From positions 1 through 42,063 of the forward strand of contig JAICLU010000004.1 of the NCBI GenBank assembly GCA_025925195.1: DNA of 42,063 bases, in the 5' to 3' direction. Positions within the stretch are counted from its first letter, which is position 1. Each line of letters starts with the position of its first letter. Shown one piece after another: positions 19,344-27,110 of the stretch. Source of the stretch: Thermoleophilia bacterium (GTDB lineage: Bacteria; Actinomycetota; Thermoleophilia; Gaiellales; Gaiellaceae). A program made the position numbers and the translations under genes. The notes under the pieces are model-generated. The model was not told where the DNA came from. It worked only from the letters and a program-made list of their open reading frames with translations, and searched no databases.

Positions 19344-20267
19344 CTAGGGGAGGAGCACGAGGCGGCCGACGACGCGGCCGGCCCGAAGGTCGGCGAGCGC
19401 CGATGTGAGCTCGCTCAAGGGTCGGCGGTCGATCGGCAGCCGGAGCTCGCCCGTCTGGAGCAGGCGCAGGAGATCCGGTGCGAGATGTGCGACGCGGGGC
19501 CCCCACTCGAGCATGCTCAGCGGCAGCAGCCGGACGGCGGACGCGAGCAGGAGGGGGAGGTGGAACGTCACGTCGACGCCCGCGGTGTACCCGACGAGCA
19601 CGGCACGACCGCCCGGGCGTACGCGTGGGATCAGCTCGGCGAGCCGCGCGCCGCCGACCGTGTCGACGAGCAGGTCGACCTCGTCCGGTAATTCCGCAGG
19701 ACCGAGCGCGCGTGCGCCCGGTGCGACGGAGTCGAGCTTCGCAGCACGTCCGACGAGCGCCTGGACGTCCGCAGCGCCGTGATGCAGCGCGAGCTGCACG
19801 ACGAGCGAGCCGACCGCCCCGGTCGCTCCGGTGACGGCAACACGCTCACCGCGTGCGAGAGCGCCGAGCTCGTGCAGGGCGACGTGAGCGGTCGTCGCAG
19901 GCGAGAAGAACGCGGCGGCGAGCGCAGCGTCGACGTCGTCCTCGACGGGGTGTAGGGCGTCGTCCGGCACCGACGCGCGCTGCGCCCATGTGCCGTCACG
20001 CCCGATGCCGACGCCGCCGCCGCGGATCCGGACGCGCGTCCCGGACGCGTGCACCACCGATTCGAGGACCACGCCCGCGCCGTCCGTGCCCGGTACGTAC
20101 GGCAGCGGCGGTCGGGCGACAAACGAGCCGGTGAGCACCGTGAGGTCGAGGTGCGTTGCCGTCGCCGCCTCGATCGCGACGAGGGACTCGCCCGGCAGGG
20201 GCTGCGGCTCCGCGACCTCCTCGAGCACCGGTTCACTTCCGAATTCGTGAACGCGCGCCGAGAGCAC
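19344..20267 (-). CDS. Medium-chain reductase, quinone-oxidoreductase-like
   Basis: This 307-residue member of the MDR superfamily lacks the catalytic zinc Cys/His set. It has a GroES-like N-terminal domain (LPYVPGTDGAGVVLES), then a Rossmann domain with VAVTGATGAVGSLVVQLALH (the AxxGxxG nucleotide motif) and DLLVDTVGGARL. It should reduce enones or quinones with NADPH. GTG 20267 has TATGCT 6 nt upstream, so it is probably leaderless. It is divergent from the 2-hydroxyacid oxidase gene, with overlapping -10 elements, which suggests joint control at the border of the catabolic island. Confidence 0.88.
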   Translation of the reverse strand: MLSARVHEFGSEPVLEEVAEPQPLPGESLVAIEAATATHLDLTVLTGSFVARPPLPYVPGTDGAGVVLESVVHASGTRVRIRGGGVGIGRDGTWAQRASVPDDALHPVEDDVDAALAAAFFSPATTAHVALHELGALARGERVAVTGATGAVGSLVVQLALHHGAADVQALVGRAAKLDSVAPGARALGPAELPDEVDLLVDTVGGARLAELIPRVRPGGRAVLVGYTAGVDVTFHLPLLLASAVRLLPLSMLEWGPRVAHLAPDLLRLLQTGELRLPIDRRPLSELTSALADLRAGRVVGRLVLLP

Positions 20268-20289
20268 GGGGCGAGCATACGATCAATGC
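20268..20289. promoter_or_regulatory. Divergent overlapping -10 elements
   Basis: Plus-strand TACGAT (20278-20283) lies 6 nt before GTG 20290. Minus-strand TATGCT (20279-20274) lies 6 nt before GTG 20267. The two hexamers share 2 bp, so both genes appear leaderless and their open complexes would compete. Confidence 0.5.
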
Positions 20290-21354
20290 GTGCTCGATGC
20301 CCGGCAGCGAGCGTTGAATCTCGCCGACTACGAGGCGTTTGCGCGCGAGCATCTCGACGCCCCGCTGTTCGCGCATCTCGACGGCGGCGCGGGTGACGAG
20401 CGGACGCTGCGCGCGAACCGCGCAGCCTGGGAAGCGCTCACGCTTCGGCCGCGCGTTCTCGTCGGCGTCGACGACGTCACGACCGCGACGACCGTGCTCG
20501 GCCGCACGGTGAAGGCGCCGATCCTCGCTGCACCGCTCGGGTTCCAGGAGCTGGTCGCCCGCGGCGGCGCCGCGGCAACGATGCGCGGCGCGGCGCGGGC
20601 GGGCGTCGGCGCCGTCGCGCCCACCATCTCGCGTGCGACGCCCGCCGAGCTCGCGGCCGCGGCCGGCGGGCTGCACTGGTTCCAGCTCTATTGCTTCCGC
20701 GACCGCGGAATCACGAACGAGCTCGTAGCGCAGGCGGCAGCGGCGCGGTACGACGCGCTCGTCGTCACCGTCGACGGGCCGGTGCTCGGCCGTCGCGAGC
20801 GCGCGCTGCGGGCCGGCTGGGAGGCCCCGACAGATCTCGTCGTCACGGCGACCGGGCTCACGGTCGACGAGTTGAATCGACTCGTCGACCCCGGGCTCTC
20901 GTGGCGGGATCTCGAATGGCTCGCGTCCTTCGGGCTGCCCCTCGTCCTCAAGGGTGTCCTGACCCGCGAGGACGCCCGGCTCGCCGCCGACCACGGCGTC
21001 GGCGCGGTGATCGTGTCGAACCACGGCGGCCGCCAGCTCGACGGGGTCGCGGCCTCCGCGGAGGCGCTGCCCGAAGTCGTCGACGCCGTTGCCGGCCGGC
21101 TCGAAGTGCTCGTCGACGGCGGCGTACGCCGCGGTATCGACATTGCTGCAGCGCTCGCGCTCGGCGCGCGCGCCGTCCTCGTCGGCCGGCCGGTGCTGTG
21201 GGCGCTCGCCGCCGCCGGGGAGGACGGGGTCGCCGCAGCTCTGACGCTCCTGCGCGAGGAGCTCGCGACCGCGCTCGCGCTCCTCGGCTGCCGGTCCCCG
21301 GAAGACGTCACGCCGGCGCATGTCGCGTGGCGGCCGCGCCCGGATACCCCGTAG
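20290..21354 (+). CDS. FMN-dependent alpha-hydroxy-acid oxidase
   Basis: This 354-residue TIM-barrel flavoprotein is of the glycolate/lactate/mandelate oxidase family. Visible landmarks: an N-terminal helix NLADYEAFAREHL, APILAAPLGFQELVARGG, LHWFQLYCFRD (FMN and substrate contacts), LVLKGVLTREDA with the FMN-binding Lys, VSNHGGRQLDG with the catalytic His and substrate Arg, and VDGGVRRGIDIAAALALGARAVLVG at the phosphate site. It oxidises an L-2-hydroxyacid to the 2-oxoacid. GTG 20290 is probably leaderless. Its own stop is part of a TAGGAT upstream of the solute-binding protein. The substrate chain length cannot be read. Confidence 0.92.
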   Translation: MLDARQRALNLADYEAFAREHLDAPLFAHLDGGAGDERTLRANRAAWEALTLRPRVLVGVDDVTTATTVLGRTVKAPILAAPLGFQELVARGGAAATMRGAARAGVGAVAPTISRATPAELAAAAGGLHWFQLYCFRDRGITNELVAQAAAARYDALVVTVDGPVLGRRERALRAGWEAPTDLVVTATGLTVDELNRLVDPGLSWRDLEWLASFGLPLVLKGVLTREDARLAADHGVGAVIVSNHGGRQLDGVAASAEALPEVVDAVAGRLEVLVDGGVRRGIDIAAALALGARAVLVGRPVLWALAAAGEDGVAAALTLLREELATALALLGCRSPEDVTPAHVAWRPRPDTP

Positions 21355-22591: not shown

Positions 22592-23383
22592 GTGCCCCAG
22601 ATCGTCTGGCAGGGCTTCACCGACCCGATCGCAAACAAGCCGTACGTCGACCGGCTCGTCGCATACCTGAACGAGATCGCCGACCCCGGCTATGAGTTCG
22701 GGTTCTCCGGCATCACGCCGCCGGACTACTACGTGCACCGGCTGACCGAGCTGCGGTGCTCCGTGCAGGCACTCGCGGGAGCGATCGAGCTCGAGCGCTC
22801 GGGCGTCGACGGCATCATCCTCGGGCACTTCCAGGACGCGGGGTTGTGGGACCTGCGGAGCACACTGTCGATCCCGATCGTCGGCCTCGGCGAGTCGTCG
22901 ATCCTGTGGGCCTGCCAGCTCGGCTACCGCTTCGGCCTGATCACGATCCACCCGAACTTCAAGGAGTGGCACGAGCAGCAGATCCGTGGCTATTCGCTCG
23001 ACGGCCGCTGCGCAGGCGTCCGTGCGATGAGCACGAGCGTCGACCTCTTCATGAAGGCGTTCGAAGGCGACGACGACGCGGCGGGCGACGTCGAGTCGCA
23101 GTTCGAGACGCTCGGCCGCGAGCTCGTCGCCGCCGGCGCCGAGGTGTTGATCCCCGCGGGCGGATTGCCGGCGCTCCTGCTCGGGACCCGCAACGCGTAC
23201 ACCGTCGACGGCGCCGTCGTGCTGAATGCGAACGGCATCGCCGCGAAGCAGGCGGAAGTCGCGGTGAAGATGCGCGCGATCAGCGGCTCCGCCCCGTCCC
23301 GGATCGGCACGTTCAGGCAGGCGTCCGCCGAAGCGATCGAGGAGTTCGTGACGCGGGCGCGTCTGCTGTCGACGGAAGCGTGA
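22592..23383 (+). CDS. Asp/Glu/hydantoin racemase-fold protein lacking the catalytic cysteines
   Basis: This 263-residue protein aligns with the hydantoin/allantoin racemase branch of the Asp/Glu racemase superfamily: GVDGIILGHFQDAGLWDLRS, STLSIPIVGLGESSILWACQ and LVAAGAEVLIPAGGLPALLL. True racemases carry one Cys in each half (near residues 79 and 184 in characterised allantoin/hydantoin racemases). Here those sites read His79 (GHF) and Ala189 (PAGG). It is therefore unlikely to be a two-base racemase; an isomerase, decarboxylase or binding role is possible. GTG 22592 has AAAGGAGCGAG upstream. It follows the binding-protein gene in the same direction. Confidence 0.82.
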   Translation: MPQIVWQGFTDPIANKPYVDRLVAYLNEIADPGYEFGFSGITPPDYYVHRLTELRCSVQALAGAIELERSGVDGIILGHFQDAGLWDLRSTLSIPIVGLGESSILWACQLGYRFGLITIHPNFKEWHEQQIRGYSLDGRCAGVRAMSTSVDLFMKAFEGDDDAAGDVESQFETLGRELVAAGAEVLIPAGGLPALLLGTRNAYTVDGAVVLNANGIAAKQAEVAVKMRAISGSAPSRIGTFRQASAEAIEEFVTRARLLSTEA

Positions 23384-23410
23384 CGGCGCGGCCGGGCGCG
23401 ACGCGGCTGC

Positions 23411-23683
23411 TCAGTCCCGTGTGCCGACGGGAACGCCGCCGTCGGCGTCGAGCCTGACCATGTCGCCCGGCGCCGTGGCCTCCGCCACGCGCGCGACGAC
23501 GACCGGGCCGAGATCGGTACGGACGGAGGCGATGTGGACGCCGGCACGCTCCGTTACCTCCTCGACGCGCCCTGCCTCCGCGGCGGCGTCGGCCCACGAG
23601 CGGTCCCCGCAGGACGGGCACAGCGCCCGCGGCGGGAATGCCGCGCGACCGCACGCCGTGCAGACCGGAATCGGAAAGCTCAC
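23411..23683 (-). CDS. DUF35 OB-fold protein with rubredoxin-like zinc ribbon
   Basis: This 90-residue protein has an N-terminal zinc ribbon with two CxxC pairs (PVCTACGRAAFPPRALCPSC) and an OB-fold (VEEVTERAGVHIASVRTDLG). Such proteins pair with thiolase-like or MaoC-like enzymes and are needed for their activity, as ChsH2/Ltp2 partners in sterol side-chain degradation. GTG 23683 overlaps the stop of the thiolase gene (GTGA), which supports a heteromeric complex with it. It ends 27 nt from the convergent racemase-fold gene. Confidence 0.88.
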   Translation of the reverse strand: MSFPIPVCTACGRAAFPPRALCPSCGDRSWADAAAEAGRVEEVTERAGVHIASVRTDLGPVVVARVAEATAPGDMVRLDADGGVPVGTRD

Positions 23684-24780
23684 GTGGCCTCGAGGACGGC
23701 TGCGTTTGCGCACGCCCCGTACCGGTAGGCGACCATCCCGTACCCGCTGACGACCGCGCGCCGCGCGCGGACCCGGTCGCCGTCGACAAGCTGCCGAACG
23801 GCCTCGACGAGCCCGTGCATCCCGCCGGCGGCGCCGGCCTGCCCGGCCGAGAGTTGCCCGCCCGAGGTGTTCACCGGCAGCGCGCTCTCGCGGACGAAGC
23901 GCGCGATGTCGCTGTCGGGGACGAGCCCGAGCTCGTCGAGCTGGATGAGCGCCATGGCCGGGTAGTCGTCGTAGACGTAGGCGGCGTCCACGTCGGCGGG
24001 GCCGAAGCCGGCGGCATCCCAGAGCTCGTGCGCGACCTCGGCAAGCCCCGTGCGCAGCCCGTCTCCCTCGTGGAGATCGGCGTTGTGGAGAGCGCGCACC
24101 GCGCGCACGATGACACCGTCCTGCGAATCGGCGACGAGGACGGCGTCTGCGCCGCTGACGACCGGAACGCAGTCGTAACGGTGGAGCGGCGGCGCGACGG
24201 GCGGGGCCGCGAGGTACTCCTCGAGGCTCAGCGGCTGCCGGTAGACGGCGCCCGGGTTCTGCTCGGCCCACTGCCGCTGCCTGACGACGAGGCGTCCATA
24301 GTCCTCGCGCTCGAGCCCGTGCCGCGTCATGTGGCGTGACGTCAGGTGGGCGAACAGCGCGTTCGGACCGCCCGTCGGGATCGGCGCGAGGTGGTCTGCA
24401 GTGGCGCGGTTGTATCGGTCGACGAGCCGTCGGAAGTCGTCCGCCTCGAAGTGGTCGCCGGACAGCAGGACGATCGCGCGTGCGTCTCCCGCATCGACGG
24501 CGCGCACCGCGTGCTGGAGCATGTTGATCGCCGATGCGCCGCCGTTCGCATCGTCCATCAGCCATCGAACGCGCAGGCCCAGCCGGAACGCGAGATCCGC
24601 GACGTGGTCCGGTGCAAGCGTGAACGACGAAACGCCGATGCCGTCTACGTCGTGCCGGTCGATGCCGCTGCGCGCAAGCACCCGAAGGAACGCGTCGGCG
24701 AGCAACTGCTCCGTCGTCGTTCCCTCACGCGGATGCCGCGAGTACGGCGACTCGGCGACGGCGACGATGCGAGCGCCCAT
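23680..24780 (-). CDS. Thiolase-family protein (SCP-x/Ltp2-like)
   Basis: This 366-residue member of the thiolase superfamily resembles the lipid-transfer-type thiolases that work with DUF35 proteins. Visible blocks: VAESPYSRHPREGTTTEQLL, DDANGGASAINMLQHAVRAV (the position where classical thiolases have the acyl-Cys, here without Cys), LPVNTSGGQLSAGQAGAAGG (the C-terminal GGxxxxGHPxGATG-like segment without the His) and AVVSGYGMVAYRYG. Loss of the classical nucleophile is shared by Ltp2-type aldolases, so it may be a retro-aldolase acting on a 3-hydroxyacyl-CoA. ATG 24780 is probably leaderless. It is divergent from the acyl-CoA ligase gene. Confidence 0.85.
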   Translation of the reverse strand: MGARIVAVAESPYSRHPREGTTTEQLLADAFLRVLARSGIDRHDVDGIGVSSFTLAPDHVADLAFRLGLRVRWLMDDANGGASAINMLQHAVRAVDAGDARAIVLLSGDHFEADDFRRLVDRYNRATADHLAPIPTGGPNALFAHLTSRHMTRHGLEREDYGRLVVRQRQWAEQNPGAVYRQPLSLEEYLAAPPVAPPLHRYDCVPVVSGADAVLVADSQDGVIVRAVRALHNADLHEGDGLRTGLAEVAHELWDAAGFGPADVDAAYVYDDYPAMALIQLDELGLVPDSDIARFVRESALPVNTSGGQLSAGQAGAAGGMHGLVEAVRQLVDGDRVRARRAVVSGYGMVAYRYGACANAAVLEAT

Positions 24781-24800
24781 CGATCCGTACGATACGCGCG
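24781..24800. promoter_or_regulatory. Symmetric bidirectional -10 in a 20-bp divergent gap
   Basis: Plus-strand TACGAT (24788-24793) is 7 nt before GTG 24801. Minus-strand TATCGT (24794-24789) is 8 nt before ATG 24780. The two -10 hexamers share five base pairs, so one site could fire in either direction and both mRNAs would be leaderless. Confidence 0.5.
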
Positions 24801-26363
24801 GTGGCCGGGTCGTCGAGACTGCCGTCTGAAGAGCGCACGCTGCCGGCTCTACTCGCCCGCGCGGCGGCACGGGACCCCGACCGCGTGCTCGCCCGCGACG
24901 AGCACGCCGCGCTCACGTGCGCCGAGGCGCTCGACGTCACGCGGCGTTGCGCCGGTGCGCTCGCGGCCGCCGGCGTCGTTCGGGGCGACCGCGTCGCAGT
25001 CCTCAGCGAAAACCGTCTCGAGGTCGTCGAGCTCTGGCTCGCGTGCGCCTGGCTCGGTGCGGTCCTGGTCCCGATCAACACGGCGCTGCGCGGACCACAG
25101 CTCGAGCACGTCTTCGCCGACGCGGAGCCGGTGCTGCTTGCGCTCGAACCGGAGCTCGCAGATCGCCTCGACCACGTCGCGAACGCACCCTCGCGGCGGT
25201 GGCTGCTCGGCGAGGACCCCCTACCGTGCGGCGAGCCCGCGGTCCGCGCCGCCGTCGGCCCCGGCGACCCCTGCGTCATCCTCTACACGTCCGGGACGAC
25301 CGGTCCGTCGAAGGGCGTCCTCTGCCCGCATGCGCAGTGGTACTGGTGGGCGGTCAGGACGGGCGGGATTCTCGGCGTCGTCCCCGGCGATGTGCTCTAC
25401 ACGAATCTCCCGCTGTTCCACACGAATGCGTTGAACACGTTCGTCCAGGCGCTCGTCCACGACGCGACCTTCTTCGCCGGTCCGCGCTTCTCCGCATCGC
25501 GCTTCTGGCGGCGGCTCGTCGCCGCCGACGCGACGGTCACGTATCTGCTCGGAACGATGGTGCACATCCTCGCGAAACGCGAGGCGGACCCTGACGAGCG
25601 ACGACATCGTGTGCGGATCGCGCTCGCACCGGCCACGCCTGCCGCGCTGCACCGACCGGTGCGCGAGCGGTTCGGAATCGAGCTCGTCGACGCGTGGGGG
25701 TCGACGGAGACCAACGCAGTCCTCTCGACCGCGCTCGAAGGTGCACCGCCCGGATCGATGGGCGGCATCACTCCCGGCTTCGACGCGCGCGTCGTCGACG
25801 GCGGCGACGAGGAGGTCCCTCCGCAAACGCCGGGCGAGCTTGTCGTCCGCTGCGACGACCCGTTTGCGTTCGCGCTCGGCTACAACCGCCTGCCCGAGAA
25901 GACGGTGGAGGCGTGGCGGAATCTCTGGTTCCACACCGGAGACCGTGTCGTGCGTGACGCCGAAGGCTGGTTCTGGTTCGTCGACCGGCTCAACGACGCG
26001 ATCCGCCGGCGCGGAGAGAACATCTCTTCGTACGAGGTGGAGACGGTCATTGCCGCTCACCCGGACATCGCCGCGGTCGCGGTCGTGCCGGTCCCGGCAG
26101 AGGAGGGGGAGGACGAGGTTCTGGCGTGCGTTGTCGTGCGCGAGGGCGCGCAGGTCACTCCCGAAGCGCTGACGGCGTTCTGCGAGCCGCGGCTCGCGTA
26201 CTTCGCGATCCCCCGCTACATCCAGTTCGACGACGCTCTGCCGCTGACGCCCAACGGGAAGATCGAGAAGTACCGGCTGCGGGAGCGGGGCATCACCGAG
26301 TCGACCTGGGACCGGGACCGCGAGGGATACCGGCTCCCGCGGGTCCTGCCGCGGCAGGGATGA
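24801..26363 (+). CDS. Acyl-CoA ligase (CaiC-like, ANL superfamily)
   Basis: This 520-residue adenylate-forming enzyme activates a carboxylic acid with ATP, then makes the CoA thioester. Motifs in order: GDRVAVLSENRLEVVELWLA, P-loop ILYTSGTTGPSKGVLCPHAQ, the central VDAWGSTETNAV, the hinge-region LWFHTGDRVVRDAEGWFWFV, DRLNDAIRRRGENISSYEVE, and the C-terminal catalytic Lys in LTPNGKIEKYRLR. Closest in type to crotonobetaine/carnitine CoA ligase and small aromatic- or aliphatic-acid ligases. GTG 24801 is probably leaderless. It supplies CoA esters that the divergent thiolase/DUF35 pair could use. Its stop abuts the convergent aldolase stop, forming TGATCA. Confidence 0.9.
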   Translation: MAGSSRLPSEERTLPALLARAAARDPDRVLARDEHAALTCAEALDVTRRCAGALAAAGVVRGDRVAVLSENRLEVVELWLACAWLGAVLVPINTALRGPQLEHVFADAEPVLLALEPELADRLDHVANAPSRRWLLGEDPLPCGEPAVRAAVGPGDPCVILYTSGTTGPSKGVLCPHAQWYWWAVRTGGILGVVPGDVLYTNLPLFHTNALNTFVQALVHDATFFAGPRFSASRFWRRLVAADATVTYLLGTMVHILAKREADPDERRHRVRIALAPATPAALHRPVRERFGIELVDAWGSTETNAVLSTALEGAPPGSMGGITPGFDARVVDGGDEEVPPQTPGELVVRCDDPFAFALGYNRLPEKTVEAWRNLWFHTGDRVVRDAEGWFWFVDRLNDAIRRRGENISSYEVETVIAAHPDIAAVAVVPVPAEEGEDEVLACVVVREGAQVTPEALTAFCEPRLAYFAIPRYIQFDDALPLTPNGKIEKYRLRERGITESTWDRDREGYRLPRVLPRQG

Positions 26364-27110
26364 TCACGTTGGCTTCCGGAGCGACAGCCAGGCCGCCTCG
26401 ACGCCGGCGGAGAGGAAGCCCAGGTCGCTGCCGAAGAGGATGAGCTCGACTCCACGCCGACCCCAGTGCGCAGCAGCGTCCGCGTCCGCGGCGTAGATGC
26501 CGGCTGCCTTGCCGGCGGCGTGCGTTCGCGTGACGACGTCGTCGAGGATGTCTCGAAGTGCGCCGCCGCCGAGGCCCGTCGAGGCGGCGAGGTCTCCCGG
26601 GCCGACGAAGACGAGGTCGATCTCGCCGACCGTGAGGATCTCGTCGAGCGCTTCGACGCCGCGACGCGTCTCCACCTGGACGGCAACGAGCGTCTCGTCG
26701 GCGGCACGAGCGACCGCGGCCGCGATGTCGCGGCCGTAGCCGGTGCTCCGCGCGGGGCCGAGGCCGCGCGATCCAACCGGTGGGTAACGCGCAAACGCGG
26801 CGGCCGCGGCAGCCTCGCCTGCCGACTCGACGCGTGGCACGACCACGCCCGCGGCGCCGGCGTCGAGCGCGGCGGCGATGTGGTGCGCCGTGTTCGCGGG
26901 GACCCGGACGAGGGCGGGCACGCCCGCGAGCGCCGCACCTCCCACCACGGCGTGGACGGCGGCGATGTCGAACGGCGCGTGCTCCTGGTCCAGGCACAGA
27001 ACGTCGGGACCGAGTCGACCGGCGACCTCGGCGACGACCGGGTGCGGCGTCTGAACGAACAGCCCGACCGCGCGGTCCCCGCCCAGCAGCCGTGCGCGCA
27101 ACGACGTCAC
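26364..27110 (-). CDS. HpcH/HpaI-type class II aldolase
   Basis: This 248-residue TIM-barrel enzyme cleaves a 4-hydroxy-2-oxoacid (or similar) to pyruvate plus an aldehyde. Visible catalytic features: LCLDQEHAPFD with the base His, PALVRVPANTAHHIAAALDA with the conserved Arg, the metal ligands Glu in AVQVETRRGVEALDEI and Asp in VFVGPGDLAAS, and AGVVVPRVESAGEA. It is of normal length. GTG 27110 overlaps the stop of the FAD oxidase gene (GTGA), so the two enzymes are co-expressed, consistent with consecutive steps on hydroxy/oxo acids. Confidence 0.9.
   Translation of the reverse strand: MTSLRARLLGGDRAVGLFVQTPHPVVAEVAGRLGPDVLCLDQEHAPFDIAAVHAVVGGAALAGVPALVRVPANTAHHIAAALDAGAAGVVVPRVESAGEAAAAAAFARYPPVGSRGLGPARSTGYGRDIAAAVARAADETLVAVQVETRRGVEALDEILTVGEIDLVFVGPGDLAASTGLGGGALRDILDDVVTRTHAAGKAAGIYAADADAAAHWGRRGVELILFGSDLGFLSAGVEAAWLSLRKPT

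Follow-up and report, generated by a model that had tools for sequence, protein, structure and literature searches.

Can one promoter element serve two genes at once? The question is raised by a 20 bp gap between two divergent genes in the window, the whole 42,063 nucleotide stretch of DNA analysed here. The sequence-only reading of this stretch proposed that a thiolase gene and an acyl-CoA ligase gene, both leaderless, are driven by one symmetric -10 element, and that the two enzymes of one pathway are thereby held in a fixed or competitive ratio. The features of the locus are as follows.

23411 to 23683, minus strand: ChsH2-type zinc-ribbon protein (PF12172), with a 4 bp overlap with the thiolase-like gene
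23680 to 24780, minus strand: thiolase-superfamily (lipid-transfer/SCP2-thiolase-like) protein, proposed leaderless, ATG start (PF22691; best solved relative the lipid-transfer protein 6ok1_A)
24781 to 24800, no strand: whole intergenic region of 20 bp, the proposed bidirectional promoter core, on the basis of sequence and position statistics
24786 to 24796, no strand: 11 bp perfect inverted repeat CGTA-CGA-TACG enclosing both -10 elements, present letter-for-letter in the related genome G029 upstream of its ligase
24788 to 24793, plus strand: proposed -10 element TACGAT of the ligase, 7 nt before the GTG at 24801, identical in the orthologue (L016/L022)
24789 to 24794, minus strand: proposed -10 element TATCGT of the thiolase-like gene, 8 nt before the ATG at 24780, a spacing inside the leaderless range of this genome
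24801 to 26363, plus strand: AMP-binding acyl-CoA ligase, proposed leaderless, GTG start (NF004808, 726 bits against a cut-off of 722; PF00501, PF13193)

We consider it likely, on sequence grounds, that the gap is a minimal bidirectional promoter with reciprocally overlapping -10 elements, of a type already published, and that this genome has many more promoters of the kind, most likely as a result of compaction.

The two genes and their start codons

The GTG start of the ligase at 24801 is backed by an orthologue with approximately 80% amino acid identity, which aligns from residue 1. The DNA similarity to this orthologue opens at window position 24785 and continues through the gene. The codon-only gene caller gave 24885 for this start and was overridden on homology, so the start used here rests on homology. 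The start of the thiolase-like gene was picked by the caller and agrees with its relatives; at all seven other loci of the family with at least 57% identity and a complete N-terminus, the matches open at query residues 2 to 5.

The 'thiolase' is probably not a classical one, but instead half of a thiolase-fold/zinc-ribbon pair, because its Pfam match is to a thiolase C-terminal-like model only, its other matches are to lipid-transfer/SCP2-thiolase proteins, and its gene overlaps that of the ChsH2-type zinc-ribbon protein by 4 bp. Given this overlap, the zinc-ribbon gene is likely to be the second gene of the leftward transcript. By eye, the protein encoded at 23680-24780 reads GQA at the place of the usual GHP-type motif.

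The proposed shared -10 element

The gap between the ATG at 24780 (minus strand) and the GTG at 24801 (plus strand) reads CGATCCGTACGATACGCGCG. Its length and letters are as the earlier reading gave them, including TACGAT rightward and TATCGT leftward with five base pairs in common. Both lie within TACGATA at 24788-24794, one per strand, and the gap thus carries the reciprocally overlapping -10 core on both strands that defines the symmetric -10 class. Within 300 bp upstream of the ligase and thiolase-like starts, the shared element is the sole TAnnnT. A consensus scan found no sigma-70 -35/-10 pair in 23000-27000. Both starts have the features of TA-led leaderless genes. A TANNNT lies about 12 bp ahead of each start codon, with spacers of 7 and 8 nt that fit the spacing usual in this genome, and neither the ligase nor the thiolase-like start is preceded by a Shine-Dalgarno match.

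The 7 nt spacer of the ligase side is commoner genome-wide than the 8 nt spacer of TATCGT, which is also less favoured than 6 nt (37 versus 80 genes). On both sides of the gap the base at -6 is A, off the leaderless consensus of the genome.

Of 100,000 shuffles of the gap, 286 had a TAnnnT placed 6 to 10 nt from both ends, as did 845 of 400,000 random 20-mers matched to the composition of the genome and 113 of the 947,798 real 20-mers of the sampled genome. Chance symmetry of the gap is rejected in view of the shuffles, the genomic 20-mers and the enrichment at tight divergent pairs described below.

In the proposed mechanism, the A at -11 and the T at -7 of one -10 element would coincide with the T at -7 and the A at -11 of the other. 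The shared element would be bound either way round by RNA polymerase carrying the housekeeping sigma factor, and the same short stretch would be melted. In both directions RNA would begin at the first base of the start codon or up to 2 nt ahead of it, such that both mRNAs would be essentially leaderless and translated as such. From the positions of the -10 elements and start codons, the opposite transcription starts are predicted to be 18 to 21 bp apart, against 7-25 bp for the symmetric -10 class, and any -35 contacts would fall inside the first codons of the partner gene. Each direction is expected to be active, with initiation in one excluding initiation in the other. Where genes dispense with a 5' leader and depend chiefly on the -10 signal, as in a lineage rich in leaderless genes, sharing one -10 may be the shortest arrangement that expresses both.

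Predicted leaderless genes in the genome

The genome assembly has 2.62 Mb in 211 contigs, is 81.7% complete and has approximately 71% GC. The sample used for genome-wide counts was 949,418 bp, about a third of the genome, made up of 80 stretches of up to 20 kb (contigs 1 to 81 except 56) and the window, which is contig 56. Gene starts were taken from a simple purpose-built caller using codon usage. With these codon-model starts, 214 of 956 complete genes carry TAnnnT 6 to 10 nt upstream, where about 11 are expected, and leaderless starts therefore appear to be common in this genome. Spacers of 6, 7, 8, 9 and 10 nt occur in 80, 56, 37, 24 and 17 genes, compared with about 2 per position elsewhere. 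The pattern fits the TA-led leaderless genes published for Actinobacteria (PMC3160421, PMC3898074). At position -6, the base directly after the -10, C makes up 57% and A 7% across the 214 leaderless promoters. G044, a genome of the same family, likewise has C most often after the -10 at leaderless starts (33 of 68).

A variant of the caller with unfiltered training gave 141 leaderless genes of 893, and 13 pairs with both genes leaderless (8 at 20-29 bp, 1 at 10-19 bp). A training filter was then added; the discarded unfiltered counts are weaker and point in the same direction. Motif-based refinement shifted 34 starts, which by estimate is about chance level, and for this reason the codon-only starts were used for the main counts and the refined starts are secondary.

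Putative shared -10 elements at divergent pairs

Codon-model gaps of 12-30 bp separate 23 of the 134 divergent pairs. A shared -10 core is present in 18 of these 23 tight pairs, where the shuffle mean is 0.41. Seven of the 18 have the form AnnnTAnnnT, five have TAnnnTA, and six have one outer T missing. The thiolase-ligase pair is outside the 23, its ligase start having been misplaced by the caller, and the 18 of 23 is thus independent of it. With the refined starts, 24 of 31 tight divergent pairs share, the thiolase-ligase pair included. Tight gaps go with leaderless genes: gaps of 12-30 bp are found in 13 of 19 pairs in which both genes are leaderless, in 9 of 58 with one leaderless gene, and in 1 of 57 with neither (both versus neither, Fisher 2.3e-9). 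Two leaderless starts with one shared symmetric -10, as first proposed for this gap, are therefore backed by sequence statistics, both in their usual leaderless distances and in the enrichment of sharing at tight pairs. The locus described as a tight example has many counterparts in this genome.

A probable second case lies within the window itself.

20268 to 20289, no strand: probable second shared-promoter gap of 22 bp, between GTG at 20267 (minus strand) and GTG at 20290 (plus strand), reading AGCATACGAT, with a shared central TA

The left start of this gap was picked by motif, which makes it the weaker case. The genes at 20267 and 20290, encoding a zinc-type alcohol dehydrogenase-like protein and an FMN-dependent dehydrogenase, both have Pfam matches.

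In 400 kb of G044, 4 of 52 divergent pairs are tight and all four of these share; the lineage claim outside this genome consists of these four tight pairs in one relative. A shared -10 was found at none of the 104 divergent pairs in samples of four other actinobacterial genomes, G150, G164, G142 and G176 (two tight pairs, neither sharing), compared with 18 of 134 in this genome (Fisher p 2.3e-5). The control samples are small, at 92-200 kb with 13-37 divergent pairs each. They are also less compact (coding fraction 0.80-0.86 versus 0.93), so that compactness and sharing are not separable in this comparison.

The conflict at the base after the -10

In the TAnnnTA geometry, one base pair serves as -6 of one promoter and as -12 of the other, and the latter position requires T (A on the other strand). 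Of the 179 leaderless promoters outside tight divergent pairs, 5 have the form TAnnnTA, compared with 10 of the 35 inside such pairs (Fisher 6.8e-6); counted by pair, this is 5 of 22 (p 0.0018). As A at -6 is rare elsewhere, yet is the base needed at the opposite -12, the symmetric form seems to be retained for use in both directions, to the partial detriment of each promoter. In the half-sharing pairs it is one outer T that is missing. The AnnnTAnnnT form has no -6/-12 conflict, and its -6 base is C at 13 of 20 positions with refined starts and at 8 of 14 with codon-only starts.

On balance we lean towards regarding shared -10 leaderless promoters as a regular architecture in this actinobacterial family. 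About one in six to seven of the divergent pairs of this genome would then have no intergenic DNA beyond a two-way core of 17-28 bp, in two geometries. TAnnnTA would trade off -6 against -12, since C suits one promoter and A serves both, and AnnnTAnnnT would avoid the conflict.

Relatives of the pair

Of the 129 genomes of the order, this genome counted, 8 carry the thiolase-like gene (E up to 1e-100) and 7 carry the ligase (E up to 1e-140). The divergent pair is absent from the other 128. Conservation of the 20 bp gap in relatives, put forward earlier as a check, was thus found in 0 of 128 genomes, and the locus differs in this from a conserved regulatory divergon, in which pair and gap are kept. 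In G017, the thiolase-like gene and the ligase gene lie side by side in the same direction, the stop codon of one overlapping the start codon of the other, and the two are therefore probably linked.

TACGATA also precedes the ligase of G029, where TACGAT stands 6 nt ahead of the GTG as part of a shared 12-mer, CCGTACGATACG. The DNA further upstream in G029 is unrelated to the window and contains a transposase-like remnant (by eye, L016:1760-2723) and no thiolase gene. Since similarity to the window starts at the -10 element itself, the boundary of the rearrangement in G029 is the edge of the putative promoter. It follows from the retention of the symmetric element without the thiolase gene that the symmetry needs no left-hand partner. 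This fits either an element predating its thiolase neighbour or a relic of a neighbour since lost. In G075, TAGCGT is found 7 nt before the ATG of the ligase and is followed by A (TAGCGTA); the other open frame there, identified by eye, points away at 50 bp from the ligase. The one close relative, G029, thus retains the putative ligase-side element, and the evidence from relatives concerns the ligase side of the gap.

Alternative explanations

It is possible that the symmetry is a by-product, with TACGAT driving the ligase only and transcription of the thiolase-like gene depending on an alternative sigma factor or on a promoter within the ligase gene. This is what the 12-mer kept in G029 without a thiolase-like gene would suggest, where similarity opens at 24785, right at the element, and the left spacing of 8 is the rarer of the two. 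We nevertheless regard a one-sided promoter as unlikely, given that the thiolase start has no TAnnnT but the shared one in the 300 bp upstream and that the A at -6 on which TATCGT depends is seldom found in other leaderless promoters and is commoner in tight divergent pairs. The 11 bp inverted repeat, perfect and conserved in G029, might instead bind a dimeric regulator repressing both genes. Such an operator is highly improbable: CGTACGATACG occurs only once in the 949 kb of this genome, and the extension to 11 bp is not special, being present by eye in two of the five other full TAnnnTA gaps (L059; L064 at 8054).

The sequence-only reading has the two pathway enzymes linked in a fixed or competitive ratio; that selection favoured the shared -10 in order to impose such a ratio is a purpose for which we find little room. 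The probable link between the two genes in G017 speaks for such coupling, as does the inability of polymerase to occupy both orientations at once (PMC12825309). The rest of the evidence goes the other way. A Pfam scan of 15 other sharing pairs gave matches for 29 of the 30 proteins, which indicates that their genes are mostly real. In only one of these pairs do the domain names suggest a link, a TPP enzyme with a KduI/IolB-family protein, probably for inositol catabolism. The other 14 have no evident functional link by domain names, for example thioesterase with SmpB, or an RlmN-like protein with the ribonucleotide reductase small chain. Since most sharing pairs look functionally unrelated, sharing points to compaction rather than pathway coupling. 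The divergent arrangement is in no other genome of the order, and the tested bidirectional promoters of E. coli compete little at basal activity (PMC12825309). Coupling as the purpose is thus unsupported, and we think it quite improbable. From coordinates only, the thioesterase and SmpB genes are also in opposite orientation in other genomes, at an inferred 27-38 bp in six and 577 bp in one, and the 23 bp gap of this genome is therefore not fixed.

Known systems and significance

The geometry of a minimal bidirectional promoter, the preferred explanation for the gap, has published precedent. Two-way promoters with reciprocal -11A/-7T overlap have been described in many bacteria, with starts mostly 18 bp apart and also 10 and 23 bp apart (PMC12825309, PMC10268837). 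The earlier statement that divergent transcription from symmetric -10 elements is known in bacteria is borne out by these papers, and the published geometry matches. Like the promoters described by Warman and colleagues, the gap has the reciprocal overlap of the 18 bp class and lies between divergent genes, with the orientation of polymerase expected to set the direction. The AnnnTAnnnT form, with its shared TA, is equated here with their 23 bp class. If fully leaderless, the two starts of the gap would be 21 bp apart, a distance predicted from the sequence that is within the variation these papers allow. Unlike in the promoters as those papers describe them, both RNAs are here predicted to be leaderless, such that the core is the whole 20 bp intergenic region, and the host is a 71% GC actinobacterium.

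The five tested E. coli bidirectional promoters had basal activity too low for competition, and in E. coli examples one direction was repressed when the other was activated (PMC12825309). By analogy, both genes of the pair are expected to be weakly and mostly independently expressed, except under strong activation of one direction.

Leaderless TANNNT genes of Actinobacteria are common and likewise have TANNNT about 10-12 bp before the start and no Shine-Dalgarno signal (PMC3160421, PMC3898074), but the element here would serve two genes at once. The divergent leaderless genes prpD/Rv1129c of M. tuberculosis have starts 120 bp apart and thus do not share a -10 (PMC3898074). The divergent core promoters of the EcoRV restriction-modification system are similar in that polymerase cannot bind both at once, and differ in their control by a C protein and in their type of gene (PMC5333194). 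The leaderless transcript in that paper is that of the convergent AhdI system. No report of shared -10 promoters between two leaderless genes was recognised in searches of an open-licence library. The combination of two leaderless starts with a shared -10 therefore appears to be new, as does its frequency in one genome.

Should the predicted starts hold, this lineage would mark the limit of promoter compaction, repeated genome-wide, in which one -10 is the entire region between two genes. They would provide a natural library for the study of when two-way promoters compete, of the constraint that leaderless starts place on start-site choice, and of selection on the -6/-12 conflict base. The thiolase-ligase pair by itself is of modest interest.

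Among divergent pairs with refined starts, nine have a gap of exactly 23 bp and only one has a gap of 22 bp. Six of the nine 23 bp gaps (L082, L089, L037, L055, L031, L054) have the form AnnnTAnnnT with spacers of 6 and 7 nt, and among divergent gaps spacers of 6 and 7 nt are preferred to two of 6 nt.
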